Positions 794 through 18,055 of a DNA stretch of 32,437 nucleotides are shown piece by piece (position 1 is the stretch's first letter; every line of letters begins with the position of its first letter). Location of the stretch: contig JARIAQ010000005.1 in assembly GCA_029257775.1 (NCBI GenBank), forward strand, positions 1-32,437, written 5' to 3'. The position numbers and the translations under genes were made by a program. The DNA comes from Blautia sp. (GTDB lineage: Bacteria; Bacillota; Clostridia; Lachnospirales; Lachnospiraceae). Below the pieces are notes generated by a model that was given only the letters and a program-made list of their open reading frames with translations, made no database searches and had not been told where the DNA came from.

Positions 794-3700
794 ATGGAAA
801 AAAAAAGATGCAATAAGTGTAATTTTCGTTTTTTACTTTCGTTTTCATTGATTTTATCGATTTTAATTTCTTCTATACCATTTATGCCAGTTTATTCGTA
901 TGCTGAAACCAATTATTTTGAAGGGTTAGAGGATATAGAAGTGGAAGAAAATACAGAAATTGATTTATTAGAAAAAGTTTCTGCTCATCTTTCCAATGGT
1001 GAAGAATTGCAAATTAGGATTTCGAATATTGTTTGTGAAACAGATAATAATTATCAATATGATGGGACAAATCGTTTGAATGTTGGTAAGGCAGGATCTA
1101 GTTATAGAGTAGAATATACCGCTACCTTATTAGAAAATGGTGCAGAAAGGTATACGGCATATCGTACAATCACGAGTATTGCTGCGAAGGGAAGTGAAAC
1201 AGTAGAAATTGAAAATCAAGTTGCAGAAGAAAGTTTGGATGAAGTTAAATTTGATGAAAAGAGACCTTTTACGCTTTCAAATTTAGAAAATACAAACTAT
1301 AAGATGGAAATGGATAATGCTCAAATAAGTACAGAACATTTTGAGTTAGAATGTATTCAAGCACAAGAGAATGAAAGTATCAAAGATCCATTAAATTTTG
1401 GAGGGATTCAAACAATCAGAGGTGGAAAATTGAAAAATAATGTTCCGCCTGTTATAGAAAATACAAAAGGGCAAAAGCATTCTTATATAAAAGCTCATGT
1501 AGAAAACGTGCAAGTATATTATGTCGGTAAACTGTTAATTGAAGATCAAGGAGAACAGAAGGAATATATTTATTACACAACTGATACACAGATTACGAAT
1601 AAGACAGTTTATGCAGTATTAAAACTAAATGAAAAGATTACATTATCTTATTCTCATAATGTAGATTACACTATTAGCTATCAATTTAAAAATAAAACTG
1701 GACAAGTTACAGAGAAAGGACCTAATGATTGGTCTTATGATGAAGTATTTGGTGAATATCGTGCGATAACAGGTCTAAAAAACCAAAATATTTCTAATAA
1801 AATTAGTATTCCAAGGGGATATAAAGCTACAATTACAGCCGTTGATCAGGATAATCGTGAGCTATACAAAAAATCAATTGGCGAGATGATGAAATATGAA
1901 CATCCCTTAATAGAAAATTCATCGATAAATATCAATAAAATAAAATTGGTAAGTGGCAGTCCGGATTCTGTTGTTTTAACAGATAAATTTTCAATTAAAG
2001 GTGCAACAAGTGATATTACAATTACAGTTCAATATGAGGAAATAGAGAATGTAACATTTAATGCAAAATTGTGGACAGATACGGTTTATGCAAAAGATCG
2101 AATATCTGTAAATGGATCCGAAAAGCCCAATAATCAGAATTCTATATTAACCTCATCTAACCATACTTTTAGTTGGGAATTTGATGGAATTACTTCATCA
2201 AGTGGAGGATACTGGAATACTTGGGAAATGGATCAGCTTGAAATTAATGGTGAGACTATTATTGTTCCCATGACAACACTTGCTGACAAAACACCAAAAA
2301 CTATTGTGACAACTTTGTCTACGGGTACGGAGGTCAAATTAACAGTAATCTCAAAAGGCGGTGAAAATGGAAATGGAACCAATAGTGGGAGACGCCATTA
2401 TGAGCTTCAAATAAGTAATTGCTATGAAGATGTAACCATTTCGGGTGGAAATATGGTTTCTCATCACCATCAAGAATATGCCATTAACATTTTGCACGGA
2501 GTTAGAGATGGTGGATTTTATGCATATGATAATATTTCTAAGAAAAAGATTTGGAGTCATTTAAAACAAGATACACTAATTGGGAAAAAAGGTCAGGCGG
2601 ATAATAGCTGGGAAGATCCGATGCGATTTAAACGACAATATGGTTTTTATACGCCGGATATTTCTTTCACCACAAAAAATGGAGAAGAATTGCAAAAAAA
2701 TGGAGAAGTTAAGTGGAAAACAGGAAATAACAATCCTTACATAGAGTATTTAATTCGAACAGACTCATCTGAAGATATTTATGTGCAAGGAAATTATAGA
2801 GTGGTCTCTTTTGAAGATTGGAAAGTTAGTTCAGACGGATATTATTATTTTAGGGGGACCAAGAAAGTAGAAGAATTTGCAAATAAAAGTCAAGCCAATG
2901 GTGTTATTTTGATTAATATTGTTTCGAAGCCAATTAAATTGGCATTAGATTATAAAAATGGAAATGATTCAACAGGGAAAAAAGCTCCTGTAGAAGAAAA
3001 TATTGCGAATCTTCCAGAAATGCAGAGAGGAGGAATGGCGGGGTATAATGTAGATACGAACCCAACGGTGTTGGTTTCTAATAGAGTTCCTGTGGATAAA
3101 ACAAATGAATTTGTTTTTGACCATTGGGAAGTTTTAGAAGCAACACAAGATGCAGAACATCCATTAGGTTATGTGACTGATCTGCCAAAGTTAGATGAAC
3201 AAGGAAATTCATTTGTTGTAAGACGAGGGGATAAATATGAATTAACAACTGATTTTTTGCAAGGATTGGATCGATGTTTTTATTTTGAGGGAAAACCAAA
3301 AGATGAGAATGGTCGCGCAGTACTTACTATTCGTGCTGTATGGAAAAAACATTATGGAATAGCAAGTATCCCTTATTCGGTTCGCTATGTTTTGGCAGAT
3401 GTAAAAAATGGTCAGATTGACAAAGCGTCTGAGCAGATTATTGAAGAACATTTCCATACGGTTAATGAAGGTGCAATGTTGATTACAGATTTGTATCAAG
3501 ATGGAAATAAAACACTTTCTGAACATATTCAACGTGTCCTTGAGGGAGCAAATCAAAGTGGAAAGGATTATACACAACAAGGAAAGGATAAATGGGTTGT
3601 ATATGAGCCAAACACAACTAAAGTGATCGAATCTGTAAATTTAGATAATAATATTGCGATTATTTATCTGATAAAGGGAAATATTCACATTAATGTGGAA

Positions 3701-4531
3701 AAAATATGGAATAGTCAAGACCTTCGAGAACCGCAAGTAAAGGTGCAACTACAAAGGCGAAGAAATGTGGATAGTCCATGGGAGCAAGTGGAAATAGCGA
3801 CACTTTCAGATAAAAACAACTGGAAATATACATTTGATGGAGCAAGGTTTTTCGATATTCTAACAATGAAACAATATGAATATCGTGTTTCGGAATTGGA
3901 TGAAAATAATCAGATTATTGAAAATGGACAACAAATTGTATTAAATGATAATAGCTATCAAGTGGAATATGCGCAGGATGTAGAAAATAATACATGGGTT
4001 ATTAAAAATAATCGATTGCTGGATTTAACCATTAATAAAGTTGTTGAAGGAGGATACGGAAACCAGAAAGAGAAATTTACATTTGTAATTAATCTTAAGG
4101 ATAGTACGGGAAAGCCAGTTGAAGGAAACATCCATTATATTGGGGGTGTGAAAGAAGGGTATGAAAGCGAATCTACGAAACTAGAAGATGGAAATATTCT
4201 TTTTAAAGGAGGGATAGGAGAAATTAAACTTTCCCATGGTCAGCAAATAAGACTACAAAATTTACCATTTAATTCTGAAATTGTAATTACAGAACAAAAT
4301 ACTGAAGGATATATAACACAATATATTGTAAATGGAGAGAAAAAAGCATTGGCACAATTAAATTTGATTCAAAATAGTGTTGTTGATGTAAAGAATGCAA
4401 AAAGTGATATTCCATCTACTGGGTTAACAGTAACACGTACAGAAAGTGTCTTATTCATTACTTTTGGGATTTTTGTACTTATGATTTTAGGTTATTTTAA
4501 ATTATCTAAAAGAAGAGAAAGGGAAAAATGA
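794..4531 (+). CDS. Large LPXTG-type pilus ancillary/tip protein (Cna_B-containing adhesin)
   Basis: A 1245-residue cell-wall-anchored surface protein, probably the tip or ancillary pilin of the operon. A signal peptide covers residues 1-37 (basic start, hydrophobic core, SYA|E cleavage). The central ~700 residues are Asn- and Ser-rich beta-type sequence that I do not recognise. Residues ~715-850 resemble InlB/Listeria-Bacteroides repeat sequence (LDYKNG..., FDHWEV). A CnaB-like domain follows at ~965-1070 (HINVEKIWNS...YEYRVSELDE), then a pilin-isopeptide-like domain at ~1077-1190 (LTINKVVEGG...VITEQNTEGY). The C-terminus is a sorting signal: IPSTG at 1206-1210, a hydrophobic segment and the basic tail SKRREREK. 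It overlaps the next gene by 4 nt (ATGA). Position and architecture match Cpa of the streptococcal FCT operon, but I cannot see a convincing thioester domain, so equivalence is inferred from gene order. Confidence 0.85.
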   Translation: MEKKRCNKCNFRFLLSFSLILSILISSIPFMPVYSYAETNYFEGLEDIEVEENTEIDLLEKVSAHLSNGEELQIRISNIVCETDNNYQYDGTNRLNVGKAGSSYRVEYTATLLENGAERYTAYRTITSIAAKGSETVEIENQVAEESLDEVKFDEKRPFTLSNLENTNYKMEMDNAQISTEHFELECIQAQENESIKDPLNFGGIQTIRGGKLKNNVPPVIENTKGQKHSYIKAHVENVQVYYVGKLLIEDQGEQKEYIYYTTDTQITNKTVYAVLKLNEKITLSYSHNVDYTISYQFKNKTGQVTEKGPNDWSYDEVFGEYRAITGLKNQNISNKISIPRGYKATITAVDQDNRELYKKSIGEMMKYEHPLIENSSININKIKLVSGSPDSVVLTDKFSIKGATSDITITVQYEEIENVTFNAKLWTDTVYAKDRISVNGSEKPNNQNSILTSSNHTFSWEFDGITSSSGGYWNTWEMDQLEINGETIIVPMTTLADKTPKTIVTTLSTGTEVKLTVISKGGENGNGTNSGRRHYELQISNCYEDVTISGGNMVSHHHQEYAINILHGVRDGGFYAYDNISKKKIWSHLKQDTLIGKKGQADNSWEDPMRFKRQYGFYTPDISFTTKNGEELQKNGEVKWKTGNNNPYIEYLIRTDSSEDIYVQGNYRVVSFEDWKVSSDGYYYFRGTKKVEEFANKSQANGVILINIVSKPIKLALDYKNGNDSTGKKAPVEENIANLPEMQRGGMAGYNVDTNPTVLVSNRVPVDKTNEFVFDHWEVLEATQDAEHPLGYVTDLPKLDEQGNSFVVRRGDKYELTTDFLQGLDRCFYFEGKPKDENGRAVLTIRAVWKKHYGIASIPYSVRYVLADVKNGQIDKASEQIIEEHFHTVNEGAMLITDLYQDGNKTLSEHIQRVLEGANQSGKDYTQQGKDKWVVYEPNTTKVIESVNLDNNIAIIYLIKGNIHINVEKIWNSQDLREPQVKVQLQRRRNVDSPWEQVEIATLSDKNNWKYTFDGARFFDILTMKQYEYRVSELDENNQIIENGQQIVLNDNSYQVEYAQDVENNTWVIKNNRLLDLTINKVVEGGYGNQKEKFTFVINLKDSTGKPVEGNIHYIGGVKEGYESESTKLEDGNILFKGGIGEIKLSHGQQIRLQNLPFNSEIVITEQNTEGYITQYIVNGEKKALAQLNLIQNSVVDVKNAKSDIPSTGLTVTRTESVLFITFGIFVLMILGYFKLSKRREREK

Positions 4532-5043
4532 AAGAACAAAGCAAAAAACAATTATCCATAAAAGAAGATCTTCTCTTTTTACTTGTGAAGATTGGTGTTG
4601 TAATTATTTTGTTATTTGTATTGTTGTTATTTGTATTTGGTATTTATCGCTGTGAGGATAATTCTATGCTTCCTGCTTTAAAAAATGGAGATTTAGCATT
4701 TTTTTATCGTTTACAGAAGCAATATCAAATATCGGATGTTATTATTGTAAAAAAAGAAGAGCATCAACAGATTAGACGCATTGTGGCCCAAGCAGGAGAT
4801 GAAGTTGATATTACTAAAGACGGATTAAAGGTAAATGGATATTTACAACAAGAAAATGAAATTTATACAGAAACATTGCCCTATGTGGAAGGAATTTCGT
4901 TTCCTATTAAGTTAAAAAAGGACGAGTATTTTGTCCTAGGAGATAACCGTTTAAATGCAATGGATAGCCGCGTTTATGGGGTTATAAAAAAAGATGAAAT
5001 AAAAGGTGTATTAATAACACTTCTCCGTAGGAGAGGATTTTAA
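4528..5043 (+). CDS. SipA-like signal peptidase I homologue, probable pilin assembly chaperone
   Basis: A 171-residue S26-family protein with one N-terminal membrane segment (residues ~13-38). Box B is present as DNSMLPAL, so the nucleophile Ser46 is retained. Box D reads QIRRIVAQAGDEVDI where active enzymes have K-R-I/V-I/G-x-P-G-D, so the general-base Lys is replaced by Arg83. Box E, YFVLGDNRLNAMDSRVYG, is intact. In Streptococcus pyogenes FCT pilus operons the gene between tip protein and major pilin encodes SipA/LepA, a signal-peptidase fold lacking catalytic residues that is needed for pilus polymerisation. The gene here has the same place and partial catalytic loss. It overlaps the tip gene by 4 nt and precedes the major pilin by 19 nt. 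Residual peptidase activity cannot be excluded from sequence. Confidence 0.8.
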   Translation: MKEQSKKQLSIKEDLLFLLVKIGVVIILLFVLLLFVFGIYRCEDNSMLPALKNGDLAFFYRLQKQYQISDVIIVKKEEHQQIRRIVAQAGDEVDITKDGLKVNGYLQQENEIYTETLPYVEGISFPIKLKKDEYFVLGDNRLNAMDSRVYGVIKKDEIKGVLITLLRRRGF

Positions 5044-5062
5044 AAAAATAAAGGAGAAAAAA

Positions 5063-6139
5063 ATGAATAAAAAGAGAATAAGCGCATTATTATTAACGGG
5101 AATTATGACATTTAGTATGGGAAGAACTGTTTTTGCAGCAGGAGAGACAACTCCGCCAGTGGTTAATAATGGGAATAATGTTTCTATTACAAAAAATTTT
5201 GAGATGTCGGAAGGCCTAAGTATACCAACGGTAGTGTTTAATTTTAGTGTAACATCTATTACCAACGATGCGCCAAAAGCCAGTATTCAAAATATAGAAT
5301 ACAATGGTATGGATCAGGAAGCAGCGGTTGATGGAAAAATTGTTATATCGAAGGACTCTGCTATAACATTTGAGGGAGCATTTCCACATGCAGGAGTGTA
5401 TGAGTATAATGTGAAAGAAGAAAAAGGAAATATAGAAGGTGTTACATATTCTACAGAAACTTACAGATTGCGTGTGTATGTTAAAAATGGCGAAAAAAAT
5501 CTTATCATTGATAGTATGACCGCTGAAAAAGGAACTGAAACAGGTGAAAATTTAAATAAAGTTGGAAAGATGGAATTTACAAATGTTTATAGAAAAGATG
5601 CCAGACTTGAAATCTCAAAGAAGACAGAAGGTGCTTTTGCAGATAAAACGAAAAAATTTGACTTTAATATTAAACTTTATGCATCAAAAACAGAAACAAA
5701 TCAGAGTCGGAAATATGAAGGAAAAATAGGTAATCAAACAATAACTTTTTCAAGTGGAGATCAGGGACAGACATTTCAATTAGCTGATGGAGAAAGTTTA
5801 GTATTTGAAAATTTACCAGTAGGGACAAAATATGTAGTGGAAGAAATCGGGGCAACAGATGGTTATACACCTACTGTAAATGTAATTGAAAATGATATAA
5901 CAACAGTTCCTAATAAAACAGTTAGTGAAGAAGATGGTATTACATCTGCAAAAGATAATACTACAAAGAACTTAGTTGGAGAGAAGACAAACCAAGTGAC
6001 TTTTACAAATACCTATAAAAATATTCCAATTACAGGAGTAATCATGAATAATCTTCCATTTATCGCAATTATTGGAATTGCTCTTGGGGTATTAATTGTG
6101 TTGGCAGTTATAAAAAAACAAAGAGTAGTGAGAAGATAA
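5063..6139 (+). CDS. Major pilin subunit, FctA/Spy0128-type two-domain isopeptide pilin
   Basis: A 358-residue secreted, sortase-anchored pilin. The signal peptide is residues 1-25 (VFA|A). Two tandem FctA-type Ig-like domains are seen. Domain 1 begins with Lys44 (ITKNFEM) and ends with Asn174 (FTNVY). Domain 2 begins around Lys186 (ISKKTEG) and ends with Asn316 (FTNTY). Both pairs are 130 residues apart, as expected for intramolecular Lys-Asn isopeptide bonds. Acidic candidates for bond catalysis are in EYNVKEE and YVVEEIG. The sorting signal is IPITG at 321-325, a hydrophobic stretch and a basic tail (KKQRVVRR). It should be the repeating shaft subunit polymerised by the adjacent class B sortase. 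The RBS AAAGGAGAAAAAA gives a clear start. Confidence 0.9.
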   Translation: MNKKRISALLLTGIMTFSMGRTVFAAGETTPPVVNNGNNVSITKNFEMSEGLSIPTVVFNFSVTSITNDAPKASIQNIEYNGMDQEAAVDGKIVISKDSAITFEGAFPHAGVYEYNVKEEKGNIEGVTYSTETYRLRVYVKNGEKNLIIDSMTAEKGTETGENLNKVGKMEFTNVYRKDARLEISKKTEGAFADKTKKFDFNIKLYASKTETNQSRKYEGKIGNQTITFSSGDQGQTFQLADGESLVFENLPVGTKYVVEEIGATDGYTPTVNVIENDITTVPNKTVSEEDGITSAKDNTTKNLVGEKTNQVTFTNTYKNIPITGVIMNNLPFIAIIGIALGVLIVLAVIKKQRVVRR

Positions 6140-6143
6140 ATTC

Positions 6144-6860
6144 ATGTTAAGAAAAGTAATTCAGATAGCAGATCGTTTTGTCAATACTATTATTGTTGGA
6201 TTTTGTATTTTACTGATTCTTTATGGAGGATATGGATTGTGGGATTCTGCGCAAATTGGTAAGCAAGCAGAATCCCAAGTATATCAGACATATAAGCCAG
6301 ATGATAAATTGTCTTTTGAAAAATTAAGGAAAATAAATTCAGAAGTGTTTGGCTGGTTAACAGTTGAGAATACTCATATTGATTATCCTTTGGTACAGGG
6401 AAAGGATAATTCAAAATATGTAAATACAGATGTGAAAGGAAAATTTTCTTTATCGGGAAGTCTTTTTTTAGATTATCAGAATCACAAAGGGTTTTCAGAT
6501 ATGAATAATATTATTTATGGACATCATATGGATAAAGATGCCATGTTTGGTGAGTTGGAATATTTTCAGAATCAAAAATATTTTGAAGAACATAAATATG
6601 GAACATTATATTATGAAGGAAAATGGCATTCTATTGAAATTTTTTCTTTTCTACATGTGGATGCATACGATGAAGTGATTTATAATGTGAGTATGAAAGA
6701 TGAAAGTGAGCGACTTGTATATTTGGATTATATTAAAACTTACGCACAACATTTTCGTGAGTTGAATTTCCAACCGGAAGATAGGTATGTAGTACTTTCT
6801 ACCTGTACATCTACTTCTACAAATGGAAGACATGTTTTAGTTGGGCGTATTTTACAGTAA
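6144..6860 (+). CDS. Class B sortase (pilin polymerase)
   Basis: A 238-residue membrane-anchored cysteine transpeptidase. One N-terminal membrane segment (residues ~12-32) precedes the sortase barrel. Catalytic residues are His127 (IYGHHMDKDAMF), Cys221 (VLSTCTSTSTNGRH) and Arg229. The TLSTC-like Cys context and GHHMDKD loop are typical of class B. FctA-type pili of Streptococcus pyogenes are also polymerised by a class B-like enzyme (SrtC1/Spy0129). The gene starts 4 nt after the major pilin stop, so coupling is likely. It is expected to cleave the IPxTG motifs of the two pilins in this operon and link pilin Thr to an acceptor Lys. The housekeeping class A sortase that would attach the fibre to the wall is not in this window. 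Confidence 0.93.
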   Translation: MLRKVIQIADRFVNTIIVGFCILLILYGGYGLWDSAQIGKQAESQVYQTYKPDDKLSFEKLRKINSEVFGWLTVENTHIDYPLVQGKDNSKYVNTDVKGKFSLSGSLFLDYQNHKGFSDMNNIIYGHHMDKDAMFGELEYFQNQKYFEEHKYGTLYYEGKWHSIEIFSFLHVDAYDEVIYNVSMKDESERLVYLDYIKTYAQHFRELNFQPEDRYVVLSTCTSTSTNGRHVLVGRILQ

Positions 6861-6877
6861 TTGGAAGCAATGGGGAC

Positions 6878-6884
6878 AGAGGAG
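6878..6884 (+). promoter_or_regulatory. RBS that sets the start of the basal pilin gene
   Basis: AGAGGAG, 10 nt upstream of the ATG at 6895. It identifies that ATG as the start rather than the in-frame TTG at 6841, which lies inside the sortase gene. The nearer ATG at 6890 is out of frame and meets TGA after two codons. Confidence 0.75.
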
Positions 6885-6894
6885 AAAAAATGAT

Positions 6895-7512
6895 ATGAAA
6901 CAAAAAAATATCAAAAGAAAAGTTATTCTGACAATACTGCTTCTTAATCTGATTATAGTTTCAGGGGATATAGTGCGTGCTTCTAAAAATGAAGTTAAAG
7001 TGTTTTTACCAGTTCAACAAATTTTTGAATTGAAAAGTAAGAGAGAAGACAATTTAAATTTAATAGGCACATATGAATTGAATGGACTTAATAATGTGAC
7101 GCCAATGCCAGAGGGAAGTAATGAAAATGATGGATATACGTTTACTATGGATGGGGAAAATGATGAAAATGAAATTCCTATTCTCTTCGATCGTGGAGGT
7201 ATATATCAATATAGGCTTTGGCAAACGACAAAAGATAGAGAAAATTATATCTATGATAGATCAAGTTACATAATTACAGTATATATAAAAAATGGAGCAG
7301 ATGATCAATTAAGTTCGGAAGTGATTGTGGAAAATGGAAGTGGAAAGAAATGTCAAGAAATTAGTTTTAAAAATAGTTATAAAGAGAATTCCAAAACCCA
7401 GACTAAAGATCCAGTGCAAACAGACGGTCATCGCCATATGGAAATATGGTTGATGTTTTGGGCCAGTGCCGTTTTACTAGTTATTTTGGTTGGTAAAAAG
7501 ATTTATAAATAG
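6895..7512 (+). CDS. FctB-like minor/basal pilin
   Basis: A 205-residue protein from the ATG at 6895. The signal peptide is residues ~1-30 (basic start, hydrophobic core, ending IVRAS). A single FctA-type pilin domain follows, with hallmarks PMPEGS, FDRGGIYQYRL, YIITVYIKNG and the closing ISFKNSY. Position and size match FctB, the basal pilin of the streptococcal FCT pilus. The usual Lys at the start of the domain appears to be Gln (PVQQIFE), so an isopeptide bond may be absent. The C-terminus has a hydrophobic helix and a short basic tail (GKKIYK) but no clear LPxTG. The nearest candidate before the helix is DPVQTDG. It may be anchored by a variant signal or remain membrane bound. It is the last gene before the terminator. 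Confidence 0.8.
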   Translation: MKQKNIKRKVILTILLLNLIIVSGDIVRASKNEVKVFLPVQQIFELKSKREDNLNLIGTYELNGLNNVTPMPEGSNENDGYTFTMDGENDENEIPILFDRGGIYQYRLWQTTKDRENYIYDRSSYIITVYIKNGADDQLSSEVIVENGSGKKCQEISFKNSYKENSKTQTKDPVQTDGHRHMEIWLMFWASAVLLVILVGKKIYK

Positions 7513-11871: not shown

Positions 11872-11884
11872 CTAAATGCTTGTA

Positions 11885-11972
11885 TAAACTCCCTACGTTG
11901 GCATAATCCAAATCAGGTAATACAGGTCGAAGATAAACTTCCTCTCAGCACTAAGGCTCCCTGGTTGTTTTC
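11885..11972 (-). ncRNA. TPP riboswitch (thi-box) aptamer
   Basis: On the minus strand the conserved thi-box elements occur in order. They are the GGGAGCC left side, CTGAGAG, the ACCTGATTTGG pyrimidine-sensor segment, ATTATGCCAACGTAGGGA and the closing GTTT that can pair with AAAC at the 5' end. These are the core TPP-binding motifs of the THI element. The terminator at 11839-11871 follows and thiC is the regulated gene, so high thiamine pyrophosphate should switch off thiC transcription. Confidence 0.95.
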
Positions 11973-11976
11973 TTTA

Positions 11977-14042: not shown

Positions 14043-14067
14043 AAAATAGAAGAGAAAGGAGCGTATG

Positions 14068-15390
14068 ATGCAGAAAGATTTAACACAAGGTTCAATAACA
14101 AAAACAATATTGATTTTTGCAATGCCTATGATTATAGGAAATTTGTTGCAACAATTTTATAATATAGCAGATACTTTAATTGTAGGGCGTTTTCTAGGAG
14201 CAGAGGCCTTGGCAGCAGTAGGTTCTTCTTACGCATTGATGACTTTTTTGACATCAATACTTTTAGGGTTGGCTATGGGAAGTGGAGCAGTTTTTTCTAT
14301 ATATTATGGGGAGGGGAATGAAGAAAAGTTAAAAGAAAGTATTGTAGCAGCATTTTGGTTGATTTTGGTAGTGGCCTTGCTGTTAAATGTTCTTGTTTTT
14401 CTTTGTATTCATCCGATTATGCATTTTTTGCAAGTTCCCAAAGAAATTTATAATATGATGAAGGAGTACCTTTGGATTGTTTTTGGTGGGATTTTTGCTT
14501 CTTTTTTATATAATTATTTTGCGTCTTTACTTCGAGCAGTGGGAAATTCCGTAGTGCCATTAATGTTTTTAGCAGTAAGTGCGGTATTGAATATCATATT
14601 GGATTTGTGGTTTATTTTAGGATTGAAATGGGGTGTGGCAGGAGCTGCAAGTGCTACTGTTATATCTCAATATGTATCAGGCATTGGTATTTTCTTGTAT
14701 ACCTGTATAAAACTTCCTTATTTTCAGGGGATTGGAAAATATATGTGTCCTAAGATGAAAATGATTAAGGAAATTGGACAGTTTTCATTTTTAACTTGTT
14801 TGCAACAGTCTGTGATGAATTTGGGAATTCTTATGGTGCAAGGTCTTGTGAATAGTTTTGGAACAGTGATTATGGCAGCTTTTGCAGCAGCGGTGAAAAT
14901 TGACTCTTTTGCATATATGCCTGTACAAGATTTTGGAAATGCATTTTCTACTTTTGTTGCGCAGAATTATGGAGCTGGAAAGAACGATAGAATACAACAG
15001 GGAATTAAGAAAGCGGTCACTCTTTCTATAGTATTTTCTTTGTGTCTTTCCATAGTGGTATTTCTCTTTGCAAGACCTCTCATGCTGATTTTTGTAAATT
15101 CAGAAGAAAGGGAGATTTTAAATGCGGGAGTAGAGTATCTAAGAATTGAAGGACTTTTTTACTGTGGGATTGGTTGTTTATTTTTGTTATATGGCTTTTA
15201 CCGTGCAGTGAAAAAGCCAGGGATGTCATTGGTGCTAACTACGATTTCCCTTGGAACAAGAGTGGTTTTGGCATATATATTGTCATCCATTCCTGCAATT
15301 GGAGTGACAGGAATTTGGTGGTCGGTGCCCATAGGGTGGGGATTGGCTGATTTAGTAGGCATTTGGTATTATAAAAATTATCATAGATAG
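14068..15390 (+). CDS. MATE family efflux transporter
   Basis: A 440-residue inner-membrane transporter with twelve predicted hydrophobic segments in two similar halves, normal for the family. The MATE signature is clear near the start: FAMPMIIGNLLQQFYNIADT, then LIVGRFLGAEALAAVGSS. The second half begins FSFLTCLQQSVMNLGI with AAFAAAVKIDSFAYMPVQDFG. Family members export drugs or metabolites by Na+ or H+ antiport. The substrate is not predictable; the DinF/NorM split cannot be decided by eye. I place the start at the second of two adjacent ATGs, which is better spaced from AAAGGAG. The next gene, the TetM-like fusion, begins 10 nt after its stop, so both probably share one mRNA. Confidence 0.92.
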   Translation: MQKDLTQGSITKTILIFAMPMIIGNLLQQFYNIADTLIVGRFLGAEALAAVGSSYALMTFLTSILLGLAMGSGAVFSIYYGEGNEEKLKESIVAAFWLILVVALLLNVLVFLCIHPIMHFLQVPKEIYNMMKEYLWIVFGGIFASFLYNYFASLLRAVGNSVVPLMFLAVSAVLNIILDLWFILGLKWGVAGAASATVISQYVSGIGIFLYTCIKLPYFQGIGKYMCPKMKMIKEIGQFSFLTCLQQSVMNLGILMVQGLVNSFGTVIMAAFAAAVKIDSFAYMPVQDFGNAFSTFVAQNYGAGKNDRIQQGIKKAVTLSIVFSLCLSIVVFLFARPLMLIFVNSEEREILNAGVEYLRIEGLFYCGIGCLFLLYGFYRAVKKPGMSLVLTTISLGTRVVLAYILSSIPAIGVTGIWWSVPIGWGLADLVGIWYYKNYHR

Positions 15391-15400
15391 GAATAGAATT

Positions 15401-18055
15401 ATGGAGACTAATCAATTGGTAGTGGGTATTTTAGCTCATGTAGATGCAGGAAAAACAACCCTTGCAGAAGGAATTTTATATCATACAGGGAGTATTCGCA
15501 AGGTAGGTCGTGTAGATCACCAAGACGCATTCTTGGATACGTATGCTTTGGAAAAGGAAAGAGGAATTACTATTTTTTCCAAACAGGCAGGCTTTACATT
15601 AAAAGGGAAGAAAATCACTCTTTTAGATACGCCAGGGCATGTGGATTTTTCAGCAGAAATGGAAAGAACACTTTCTGTATTAGATTATGCGATTCTTGTT
15701 ATTAGTGGAGCAGATGGGGTACAGGGTCATGTACAAACCTTATGGAAATTATTAAAAGAGTATGAAATTCCTGTATTTATTTTTATTAATAAAATGGATC
15801 AGGAAGGAACAAGTCAAGAAAAATTGTTATTAGAGTTGCAAAATAGACTGGATAAAGGGTGTATAGATTTTACTTTTTCTAAAGCCCATAGTTCAGAATT
15901 TTTGGAAGAACTGGCTCTTTGTGATGATCAGGTGCTTGCAAAATATTTAGATTATGGAGAAGTATCTACAATAGATATTCAGGAAATGATTAGAAAAAGA
16001 GAAGTATTTCCTTGTTATTTTGGTTCTGCGCTAAAGCTTCAAGGAATTCAGGAATTTTTAGAAGGTCTGGAGTTGTATACAGAATGTCCTCAATATAAGG
16101 ATGAGTTTGGTGCCAGAGTATTTAAGATTTCCAGAGATGAAAAGGGAAATAGGTTAACACATTTAAAAGTGACAGGTGGAACTTTAAAGGTTAAGCAAAG
16201 TATAAAAGGAAAAGATTGGGAAGAGAAAGCAGACCAAATTCGTGTTTATGACGGAGCAGGATTTCTTTCTGTCAGTAAGGCAGAGGCAGGAGGAATATAT
16301 ACGGTAACAGGACTTTCCCATACTTTTGCAGGAGAGTGTCTAGGTATAGAACAGGGAGGAAAAGAGCCTGTTTTGACACCAGTACTCACTTATGAAATTC
16401 GACTTCCAAAGCAGTGTGATGTACACAATATGTTAAAAAAACTTCAAGAGCTGGAAGAGGAAGAACCTTTGCTTCATATTATATGGAATGAGAAGCTGGG
16501 AGAAATTCATGCGCAAGTTATGGGAGAAGTACAGATTGAAATTTTAAAGAGAATGATACAGGAGCGTTTTGGCGTATCTGTAGAGTTTGGTGCAGGAAGC
16601 ATTGTATACAAAGAAACTATTGCAGATAAAGTGGAAGGAATTGGACATTTTGAGCCATTGCGTCATTATGCAGAGGTGCATCTTTTATTGGAACCGTTAG
16701 AGCGTGGCAGTGGATTGGTCTTTGAGACAGAGTGCAGTGAAGATATGTTGGATCGAAATTGGCAGAGACTGGTTCTTACACATTTAGAAGAAAAAATCCA
16801 TCGGGGTGTACTTACTGGTTCTGAAATTACAGATATGAAGATTACTTTAATTGCAGGTAAAGCCCATGCAAAGCATACAGAAGGAGGAGATTTTCGCCAA
16901 GCAACCTATCGTGCTGTACGTCAGGGGTTGAAAAAGGTAAAAAGTATCTTGTTAGAGCCTGTGTATGAATATCGTTTAGAAGTACCACAAGATACAATCG
17001 GCAGGGCAATGACAGATATTCAAAAAATGTATGGAAGTTTTCATTCCCCGAAAAACGAAGGGGAAATGTGTATTCTTACAGGCGAGGTTCCGGTGGTTAC
17101 TATGGAAGGATATCAACGGGATATGATTTCTTATACGAGAGGAAGAGGAAGATTATTCTGTACTTTGAAGGGATATGAACCTTGTCATAATGAAGAAGAA
17201 GTTTTAGCTGAGATCAATTATGATGCAGAAAGTGATTTGGAGAATCCTACAGGTTCTGTTTTTTGTTCTCATGGAGCAGGATTTCCTGTAAGTTGGGATA
17301 AAGTAGAGGAATTTGCTCACATTCATACAGAGTTTGAAAAAACAAAGGAGGAACAAAGGGAAAGGATTTCTAAAATAAATTTTTCTAAAATGTCATTAGA
17401 TGAAGAAGAACTGGAAGAAATTTTTATTAGAACTTATGGTCCTATAAAGAGAGAAAGAAATGGATTTCAGAAAACTTCCCATACGATTACGGTAAAGGCA
17501 GATGCCAAAAAGCCAGTGAAAAGGCAGATAGAGAAGGAATATCTTTTAGTAGATGGATATAATATTATTTTTGCATGGGAGGAGTTAAATGAACTGGCAA
17601 AAGTGAATATAGAGGCTGCAAGAAATAAGTTGATGGATATTCTATGTAATTATCAAGGATATAAGAAATGTACATTAATTCTGGTATTTGATGCCTATAA
17701 AGTAGAAGGAAATCCAGGATCTATACAAAAATATCATAATATTCACGTAGTTTATACAAAAGAAGCAGAAACAGCAGACCAGTATATTGAAAAGACGGTA
17801 CATGAAATTGGGCGCAAATATCATGTTACAGTTGCTACTTCGGATGCTATGGAGCAGGTTATTATTTTGGGACAGGGAGCTTCCAGAATGTCAGCAAAGA
17901 ATCTGTTGGATGAAGTTAAACAAATGAAAGAAGAAATTCGAGAAATTTACCTTGAAAAGCAGAAAAAAAGTGGGACTTATCTTTTTGATAGTTTGCCAAA
18001 AGAATGGGAAGAATTTATAGAAGATGTACGTTTAGGAAAGAAAAAGTTCGAATAA
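15401..18055 (+). CDS. TetM/TetO-like ribosome-protection GTPase fused to a YacP/Rae1 NYN nuclease domain
   Basis: An 884-residue two-part protein. Residues ~1-670 form an EF-G-like translational GTPase closest in appearance to TetM/TetO. Its G motifs are AHVDAGKTTL (12-21), RGITI, DTPGH, NKMD and GSAL. Domains II to V follow, including the domain-IV loop AHAKHTEGGDFRQATYRAV and a C-terminal GYQRDMISYTRGRG. After a basic linker, residues ~712-860 are a complete NYN domain of the YacP type: LLVDGYNIIFAW (Asp718), LVFDAYKVEG (Asp764), TKEAETADQYIEK (Asp793), VATSDAMEQ (Asp815) and GQGASRMSAKNLLDEV. YacP of Bacillus subtilis is Rae1, which cuts mRNA in the ribosomal A site. Ordinary ribosome-protection proteins end near residue 640. 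The fusion likely acts on stalled or drug-bound ribosomes; tetracycline resistance is not demonstrated. No frameshift separates the two parts. Confidence 0.92.
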   Translation: METNQLVVGILAHVDAGKTTLAEGILYHTGSIRKVGRVDHQDAFLDTYALEKERGITIFSKQAGFTLKGKKITLLDTPGHVDFSAEMERTLSVLDYAILVISGADGVQGHVQTLWKLLKEYEIPVFIFINKMDQEGTSQEKLLLELQNRLDKGCIDFTFSKAHSSEFLEELALCDDQVLAKYLDYGEVSTIDIQEMIRKREVFPCYFGSALKLQGIQEFLEGLELYTECPQYKDEFGARVFKISRDEKGNRLTHLKVTGGTLKVKQSIKGKDWEEKADQIRVYDGAGFLSVSKAEAGGIYTVTGLSHTFAGECLGIEQGGKEPVLTPVLTYEIRLPKQCDVHNMLKKLQELEEEEPLLHIIWNEKLGEIHAQVMGEVQIEILKRMIQERFGVSVEFGAGSIVYKETIADKVEGIGHFEPLRHYAEVHLLLEPLERGSGLVFETECSEDMLDRNWQRLVLTHLEEKIHRGVLTGSEITDMKITLIAGKAHAKHTEGGDFRQATYRAVRQGLKKVKSILLEPVYEYRLEVPQDTIGRAMTDIQKMYGSFHSPKNEGEMCILTGEVPVVTMEGYQRDMISYTRGRGRLFCTLKGYEPCHNEEEVLAEINYDAESDLENPTGSVFCSHGAGFPVSWDKVEEFAHIHTEFEKTKEEQRERISKINFSKMSLDEEELEEIFIRTYGPIKRERNGFQKTSHTITVKADAKKPVKRQIEKEYLLVDGYNIIFAWEELNELAKVNIEAARNKLMDILCNYQGYKKCTLILVFDAYKVEGNPGSIQKYHNIHVVYTKEAETADQYIEKTVHEIGRKYHVTVATSDAMEQVIILGQGASRMSAKNLLDEVKQMKEEIREIYLEKQKKSGTYLFDSLPKEWEEFIEDVRLGKKKFE

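Follow-up and report, generated by a model that had tools for sequence, protein, structure and literature searches.

The fused gene and its surroundings

The stretch of Blautia sp. DNA analysed, 32,437 nucleotides of contig JARIAQ010000005.1 and hereafter termed the window, carries on its plus strand a single uninterrupted open reading frame (ORF) of 884 codons (15401..18055) which, on the basis of the ORF and its Pfam matches, specifies an 884 aa protein combining a translational GTPase with an NYN nuclease of the Rae1/YacP type. The EF-G/Tet-type GTPase (residues 6-600; 15416..17200, +) comprises domains I-V, for which Pfam returned GTP_EFTU at residues 6-226 (E 5.5e-50), EFG_III at 326-397, EFG_IV at 400-512 and EFG_C at 517-598. 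Its G motifs are present, the P-loop G1 sequence GILAHVDAGKTT occupying residues 9-20 (15425..15460, +), and alignment placed the tip loop of domain IV, GKAHAKHTEGGDFR, at residues 486-499 (16856..16897, +). There then follow a conserved tail (residues 601-645; 17201..17335, +), a poorly conserved linker (residues 646-710; 17336..17530, +), and the nuclease domain itself (residues 711-884; 17531..18052, +), recognised by Pfam, by its match to the Bacillus subtilis Rae1 structure 5mq8, and by Foldseek. The Pfam model NYN_YacP covered residues 715-877 with an E-value of 4.1e-55 and 186.7 bits against a gathering cut-off of 24.6, and alignment located the codons of four active-site aspartates, Asp718 (17552..17554), Asp764 (17690..17692), Asp793 (17777..17779) and Asp815 (17843..17845), all on the plus strand. 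No SMR domain of the SmrB/MutS2 type was found among the nine Pfam matches of the protein at E-values up to 0.1. The first-pass annotation of this DNA had described one 884-codon gene with these boundaries, G motifs and four aspartates, and had proposed that an A-site-type nuclease is tied to an EF-G/Tet-like carrier; the coordinates and residues were confirmed by ORF, Pfam and alignment, and the domain content supports the proposal.

In the full-length predicted model (pTM 0.56) the nuclease has no fixed position relative to the rest of the protein, and the linker stretches 651-667 and 679-710 returned pLDDT values under 50. Because PDB searches with the full model yielded GTPase-type chains only, from EF-G, EF-2, TetM and RF3-type proteins, a separate model of the NYN region was built for a search of its own. 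In a comparison of eight pairs, in which many dS values were saturated, omega ranged from 0.037 to 0.113 in the GTPase, from 0 to 0.071 in the nuclease, and from 0 to 0.262 in the linker (one pair undefined). By sequence, both GTPase and nuclease are complete and subject to purifying selection. Chance joining or an assembly artefact is ruled out as the source of the fusion, because it is present at full length in 18 of the 20 genomes of the genus, that of the window included. The two exceptions are G002, in which the first 54 residues are missing, and G012, in which the fusion lies in pieces on two contigs.

A MATE transporter gene identified by Pfam (14065..15390, +) lies 10 bp upstream of the fusion and is probably co-transcribed with it. 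This neighbour is lineage-specific: a MATE match was recorded in 12 of 120 related loci, many of which have flanks of only 1.5 kb, and no conserved neighbourhood of the fusion was found, with no neighbour family occurring in more than 10 of 94 loci over flanks of 1.5-6 kb. Elsewhere in the window a TPP riboswitch (11873-11973, -) precedes a minus-strand thiC gene, and genes for a sortase, a signal peptidase, DUF7601 and isopeptide-domain proteins make up a pilus-like surface cluster at 794-7512.

Identity of the nuclease domain

Residues 706-884 matched B. subtilis Rae1 (5mq8) with an E-value of 1.7e-26. When the separate AlphaFold2 model of residues 711-884 (pLDDT 86.8) was submitted to Foldseek, the top three PDB matches were all chains of B. 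subtilis Rae1, the best being 5mq9_B (E 1.7e-12; rmsd 1.4 over 136 columns), and the predicted fold of the nuclease is accordingly that of Rae1. Each of the four active-site positions is aspartate in 128/128 fused rows, which represent 125 distinct genes (L038 being part of L001, and L051 and L079 the same as L037 and L021, respectively), and in 30/30 standalone NYN domains. The full YacP-type NYN domain reported by the first-pass annotation is borne out by the Pfam score, by the predicted fold and by these invariant residues.

Of all the NYN columns that are at least 85% conserved in the standalone domains, only two were kept in fewer than 70% of the fused rows, namely E874 (81/128) and R877 (66/128, as opposed to 29/30 standalone domains, with 35 fused rows ending or gapped at that point). 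These align with E162 and R165 of B. subtilis Rae1, numbered from the aligned chain, and belong to its C-terminal E-x-W-R-R motif, of which the window protein retains E874 and R877 (E-x-x-R; 18020..18031, +) with V in place of the W, the wild-type W164 of Rae1 being deduced from the W164L entry 5mq9. In the available part of PMC6613710, a change to proline at Rae1 R166, beside R165, is included among suppressor mutations read as loss of function. Relaxation of E-x-x-R across many fusions may reflect a reduced need for what is presumed to be Rae1's own ribosome contact once the nuclease is carried by a GTPase. In the NYN tree the fusion domains did not form one clade, and a single clade was not rejected (AU p = 0.133).

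Relationship of the GTPase to Tet proteins and EF-G

The window protein scored far below NCBI's curated ribosomal-protection cut-off, and below the cut-offs of all three models compared, with 454.4 bits for tet_protect NF012153 (cut-off 775), 309.8 bits for NF033148 (cut-off 1100) and 307.8 bits for the EF-G model TIGR00484 (cut-off 659.4); the 775-bit cut-off was passed by L047, L171 and L174 at 851-1001 bits. Identity of the GTPase part to the Tet(M)/Tet(O)-type proteins compared was about 29-34%. At the tip of domain IV, four aligned Tet proteins have GxYYSPVSTPADFR, and across 126 rows, representing 124 distinct fused genes, PVST was present in 0/124 and a KHTEGGDFR tip in 117/124. In Tet proteins this loop III, of the SPVSTPADFR type, includes Pro509, which overlaps tetracycline (PMC7456112). 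Since an S508A/P509A/V510A triple mutant of TetM is described as active in the available part of PMC4750697, the tip sequence alone is not decisive for Tet function, and the tip of L174, a Tet protein by cut-off, is itself slightly different (SPASTPADFR).

A quick GTPase tree (LG+G4, SH-aLRT support) placed the fused proteins in one clade (100), the fused and solitary proteins together in a clade (99), and the six Tet rows in a separate clade (100). A plain TetM reading of the gene is therefore out on curated cut-off, tip loop and GTPase tree, and the fusion GTPase is, by these sequence comparisons, best regarded as a non-Tet, EF-G-like protein of a clade distinct from the tetracycline protection proteins. 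The 'TetM-like' description of the first-pass annotation holds in so far as the GTPase is of EF-G/TetM type with, like Tet(M) and Tet(O), all G motifs, and fails as an assignment to the Tet proteins themselves; the warning that accompanied it, against a routine tetracycline label, is supported.

Four further proteins of Tet-like GTPase type (L170, L172, L173 and L175) group together as a third clade, marked by PKPCWA and, in at least two of the four, by tips of the HTHPLDFF type; L170, the only one scanned, scored 606 bits and is also below the Tet cut-off.

Distribution of the fusion

When named genomes were scanned with NYN-derived patterns, at least 580 relatives were returned among 596 stretches, any YacP included, and a fused ORF was present in every one of the best 80 of these, the locus titles of which include Blautia, Robinsoniella, Mediterraneibacter, Anaerostipes, Intestinimonas, Flavonifractor, Anaerovorax and Desulfosporosinus acididurans. 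In the window's own family, YacP was detected in 358 of 396 genomes, nearly always as a single match; among the matches listed, 14 YacP places lay in frames of 271 aa or less, and two of the short frames (G143, G395), together with a 601-aa frame in G184, look like split fusions. In a sample of the class YacP was present in 132 of 195 genomes, in frames of 600 aa or more in 68 cases, of 295-376 aa in four and of 216 aa or less in 60. In a phylum sample of 199 genomes, 15 reached an E-value of 1e-95 or better, and in 12 of these 15, the window included, the frame measured 857-947 aa. Among 1384 matching plasmid records, two had a place that spanned at least 80% of the protein.

Identity to the window in the GTPase part did not follow kinship. 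The same-family genome G053 gave 60.8% (RlmB 74.8%), and G216 and G238 of the same family 51 and 55%, while five genomes from outside the order (G479, G564, G611, G639 and G624) reached 63-64% with RlmB identities of 52-55%; many other class members were lower, at 51-62%. Because these identities are out of order with kinship, simple descent at an even rate would not fit and horizontal spread would. The taxonomic range mapped here takes in a large number of clostridial families, and the sequences show signs of horizontal spread. In one genome (G018) two full-length copies of the fusion were recorded, on contigs C103 and C124, which may indicate a mixed assembly or a duplication.

Loss of the operon-encoded yacP

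In related genomes Rae1/YacP is encoded in an operon: standalone yacP lay directly after rlmB in 23 of 29 annotated loci (30 were collected, L180 being left out), the commonest order being cysS-mrnC-rlmB-yacP-sigH. The fusion gene, by contrast, lies outside this operon and its nuclease behind a translational GTPase. The window's own genome has one YacP, the fused one; in its operon 31 bp separate the RlmB match from that of SigH, no YacP lies between them, and the fusion gene is elsewhere.

The same arrangement was apparent across the fusion carriers, with an intact YacP at the operon slot in 0/40 loci from fusion genomes. In the first 20, from genomes chosen as fusion carriers, the cysS-mrnC locus gave no YacP match, and where both RlmB and SigH were found they were separated by 15-82 bp in 14 and by 620 bp in one; in the 20 further loci no intact YacP was present in the slot, and 16 of them, in which both genes were found, had gaps of 27-595 bp. 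Control loci, 20 of which were picked from the 30 standalone loci for a visible operon, gave a gap of 546-747 bp in 16 of the 17 with both genes and of 2291 bp in the other (L062), with yacP between. Of the 40 fusion genomes, 38 were fully verified, 30 having GTPase and NYN in one frame and eight an NYN match in a frame of 882-934 aa, the other two being G594, in which the fusion is split at contig ends, and G287; among the 40 operon loci the G577 region is without RlmB, and SigH is outside or absent in nine.

Traces of the displaced gene were detected in three of these operons. A decayed yacP occupies the rlmB-sigH slot of the fusion carrier G479 (L217:5611-6193), with 48% identity over 89 columns interrupted by stops and 64% over 44 columns in another frame, and the slot holds no ORF of 80 aa or more. 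Shorter remnants were present in two other slots, with 48% identity over 31 residues in G546 (L231; E 9e-5) and 68-73% over 26-29 residues in G079 (L242; best E 6e-9), these E-values referring to small sets of loci. In G505, which belongs to the genus of G479, the slot contains an intact yacP, and this genome does not figure among the GTPase matches. No genome of the class sample combined the fusion with an intact standalone yacP, and in the five family genomes with two NYN matches no intact standalone copy was found beside the fusion at E 1e-15. The identity of the fusion and its replacement of the operon-encoded yacP in its lineage are well supported, and the traces, a natural record of that replacement, constitute independent evidence that it does the same job.

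Second, weak NYN matches in G564, G611 and G639 were rejected as spurious: the ORF concerned, examined in G564, resembled an Lrp-type regulator when read by eye, and the matches in the other two genomes align identically. In G624 (L230) the NYN part of the fusion is located in the same 11.5 kb stretch as rlmB-sigH, some kilobases downstream.

Solitary GTPases and their association with YacP

Most solitary members of the fusion's GTPase clade end at the conserved tail (residues 601-645). Within the window's own family a solitary GTPase was present in 9 of 11 genomes with a separate yacP and in 0 of 20 without, a difference giving Fisher p 2.7e-6; with four genomes added (G043 and G047 with both, and the incomplete G035 and G039 with YacP alone) the counts became 11/15 and 0/20 (p 3.3e-6), these tests ignoring relatedness and covering 20 of the 38 yacP-less genomes. 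Beyond the family, the class sample gave a separate GTPase in 8 of 60 genomes with a separate YacP as against 6 of 63 (p = 0.58), a count that takes in G585 and G481 without a tip-loop check and G635 split over two frames. A general co-occurrence of the separate proteins was accordingly discarded, being strong only within the family and vanishing class-wide, and for that reason no claim is made that the GTPase needs Rae1 everywhere: each exists without the other, and simple co-expression is possible.

Proposed function

EF-G enters the same ribosomal site as the Tet proteins. For the latter this is the A site (PMC7456112), and PMC6613710 characterises Rae1 of B. subtilis as an endoribonuclease acting in the A site, the loss of which suppresses lack of EF-P. 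Because the A site is common to Rae1 and to Tet/EF-G proteins, a handover from GTPase to nuclease is proposed. The GTPase would sample the factor site and A site of stalled ribosomes with an empty A site; GTP hydrolysis would then move or release domain IV, allowing the flexibly tethered nuclease to enter the freed A site and cut the A-site codon, whereupon the message would be destroyed and the ribosome would become a substrate for non-stop rescue. Two steps are assumed because the decoding centre should be unable to accommodate domain IV and the nuclease at once.

On balance, the protein probably serves its lineage as Rae1 (YacP), the endonuclease that cuts A-site mRNA, moved onto the C-terminus of a non-Tet, EF-G-like GTPase that would target it to the ribosome. 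Against this it can be argued that standalone Rae1 needs no fused GTPase, that the model gives the nuclease no fixed position, that the NYN tree shows no single fusion event, and that separate GTPase and YacP do not significantly co-occur outside the family. On the more specific proposal, of a single-protein no-go-decay factor that binds the empty-A-site ribosome as EF-G does, cuts the message, had a single origin in Clostridia, was disseminated by horizontal transfer and extinguished the native yacP repeatedly, our judgement is evenly divided.

A rather unlikely alternative, albeit one with arguments in its favour, is that two independent housekeeping activities share one chain, the GTPase serving elsewhere in translation and the nuclease being an ordinary Rae1, so that fusion fixes stoichiometry or expression only and involves no handover. 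In keeping with it, a solitary GTPase is found at similar rates in class-sample genomes that have YacP and in those that do not, and the linker is long, variable and disordered; but loss of the operon yacP in fusion genomes of distant families calls for a benefit, the C-terminal motif of Rae1 is relaxed in the fusions, and GTPase and nuclease would be expected to share one site on the ribosome.

Protection against tetracycline or another A-site drug, with the RNase adding a resistance step as in Atkinson 2015 and public annotation, is a very improbable reading, and a tetracycline-resistance role for the fusion is correspondingly unlikely. The domain layout, the 454 bits to the tet_protect model, the labels on relatives in public records, the activity of the TetM triple mutant (PMC4750697, in its available part) and the deviant tip of L174 can all be cited for it. 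They are countered by the sub-threshold score, the lack of a PVST tip in 124/124 distinct fused genes and the separate clade, by the fusion being the sole YacP of its own genome with the operon copy gone, by its presence in environmental anaerobes such as Desulfosporosinus acididurans, and by its co-existence in at least 12 of 98 genomes with a separate gene of ribosomal-protection type (tips of the latter checked in G007, G008 and G053 only). A stress or antibiotic-response factor acting mainly on drug-stalled ribosomes rather than on stalls in general has equally little to commend it, since the MATE drug-exporter gene 10 bp upstream, the point in its favour, has a counterpart in so few related loci and no neighbour family recurs in more than 10 of 94. 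The suggestion in the first-pass annotation of an action on drug-bound ribosomes likewise found no specific support, the gene being a single-copy chromosomal replacement of yacP, in at least those 12 genomes beside a protection-type gene.

Comparison with known systems

The NYN fold and four aspartates are shared with B. subtilis Rae1/YacP (5mq8, 5mq9). From Tet(M) and Tet(O), with their SPVSTPADFR tip, the fusion differs in its KHTEGGDFR tip, its separate clade, its score below the curated cut-off, its nuclease, and its character as a chromosomal replacement gene. Eukaryotic no-go decay, in which Hbs1/Dom34 act with the nuclease Cue2, also employs a translational GTPase; the nuclease domain of Cue2 and SmrB is of the SMR type, unrelated to NYN, and in both SmrB and Hbs1/Dom34-Cue2 systems GTPase and nuclease are separate proteins, whereas the fusion is one polypeptide. 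As proposed for the fusion, SmrB of Escherichia coli is a nuclease recruited to stalled ribosomes, according to the available part of PMC10897456.

The fusion itself is not undescribed, as the first-pass annotation had supposed. In its available part, Atkinson 2015 (PMC4342817) mentions in a single sentence the acquisition of a YacP-like NYN RNase domain by the Tet proteins of ten Clostridiales species, which may be a new resistance mechanism; these 'Tet proteins with YacP-like NYN RNase domain' are the same fusion, filed under Tet with a possible resistance role, and that part connects it neither with the loss of yacP from the operon nor with a GTPase clade apart from Tet. A literature search on titles and the starts of abstracts recognised no other account, although an earlier mention is possible in work on Rae1 distribution; as far as that search reaches, it is new that the GTPase forms a clade of its own, that yacP has been replaced and relics of it remain, and that the fusion is so widely distributed.

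If correct, the proposal would explain Rae1-type decay in much of the Lachnospiraceae and other Clostridia, would provide a case of a GTPase cycle able to control an A-site nuclease, and would recast Rae1's choice of ribosomes as a question of which ribosomes the GTPase part binds. In numerous anaerobes, of the gut and elsewhere, the presumed cutter of mRNA inside stalled ribosomes is part of a translation-factor-like GTPase instead of a protein by itself, which suggests that one protein may suffice to clear stuck ribosomes. As relatives are labelled TetM/TetW/TetO/TetS in public records, a chromosomal gene that is common in the gut can wrongly enter counts of tetracycline resistance.

Relatives of the GTPase part only, at 48-50% identity, were also encountered on megaplasmids of Ligilactobacillus salivarius, including NC_007930.1, where they are annotated as TetM/TetW/TetO/TetS resistance proteins.
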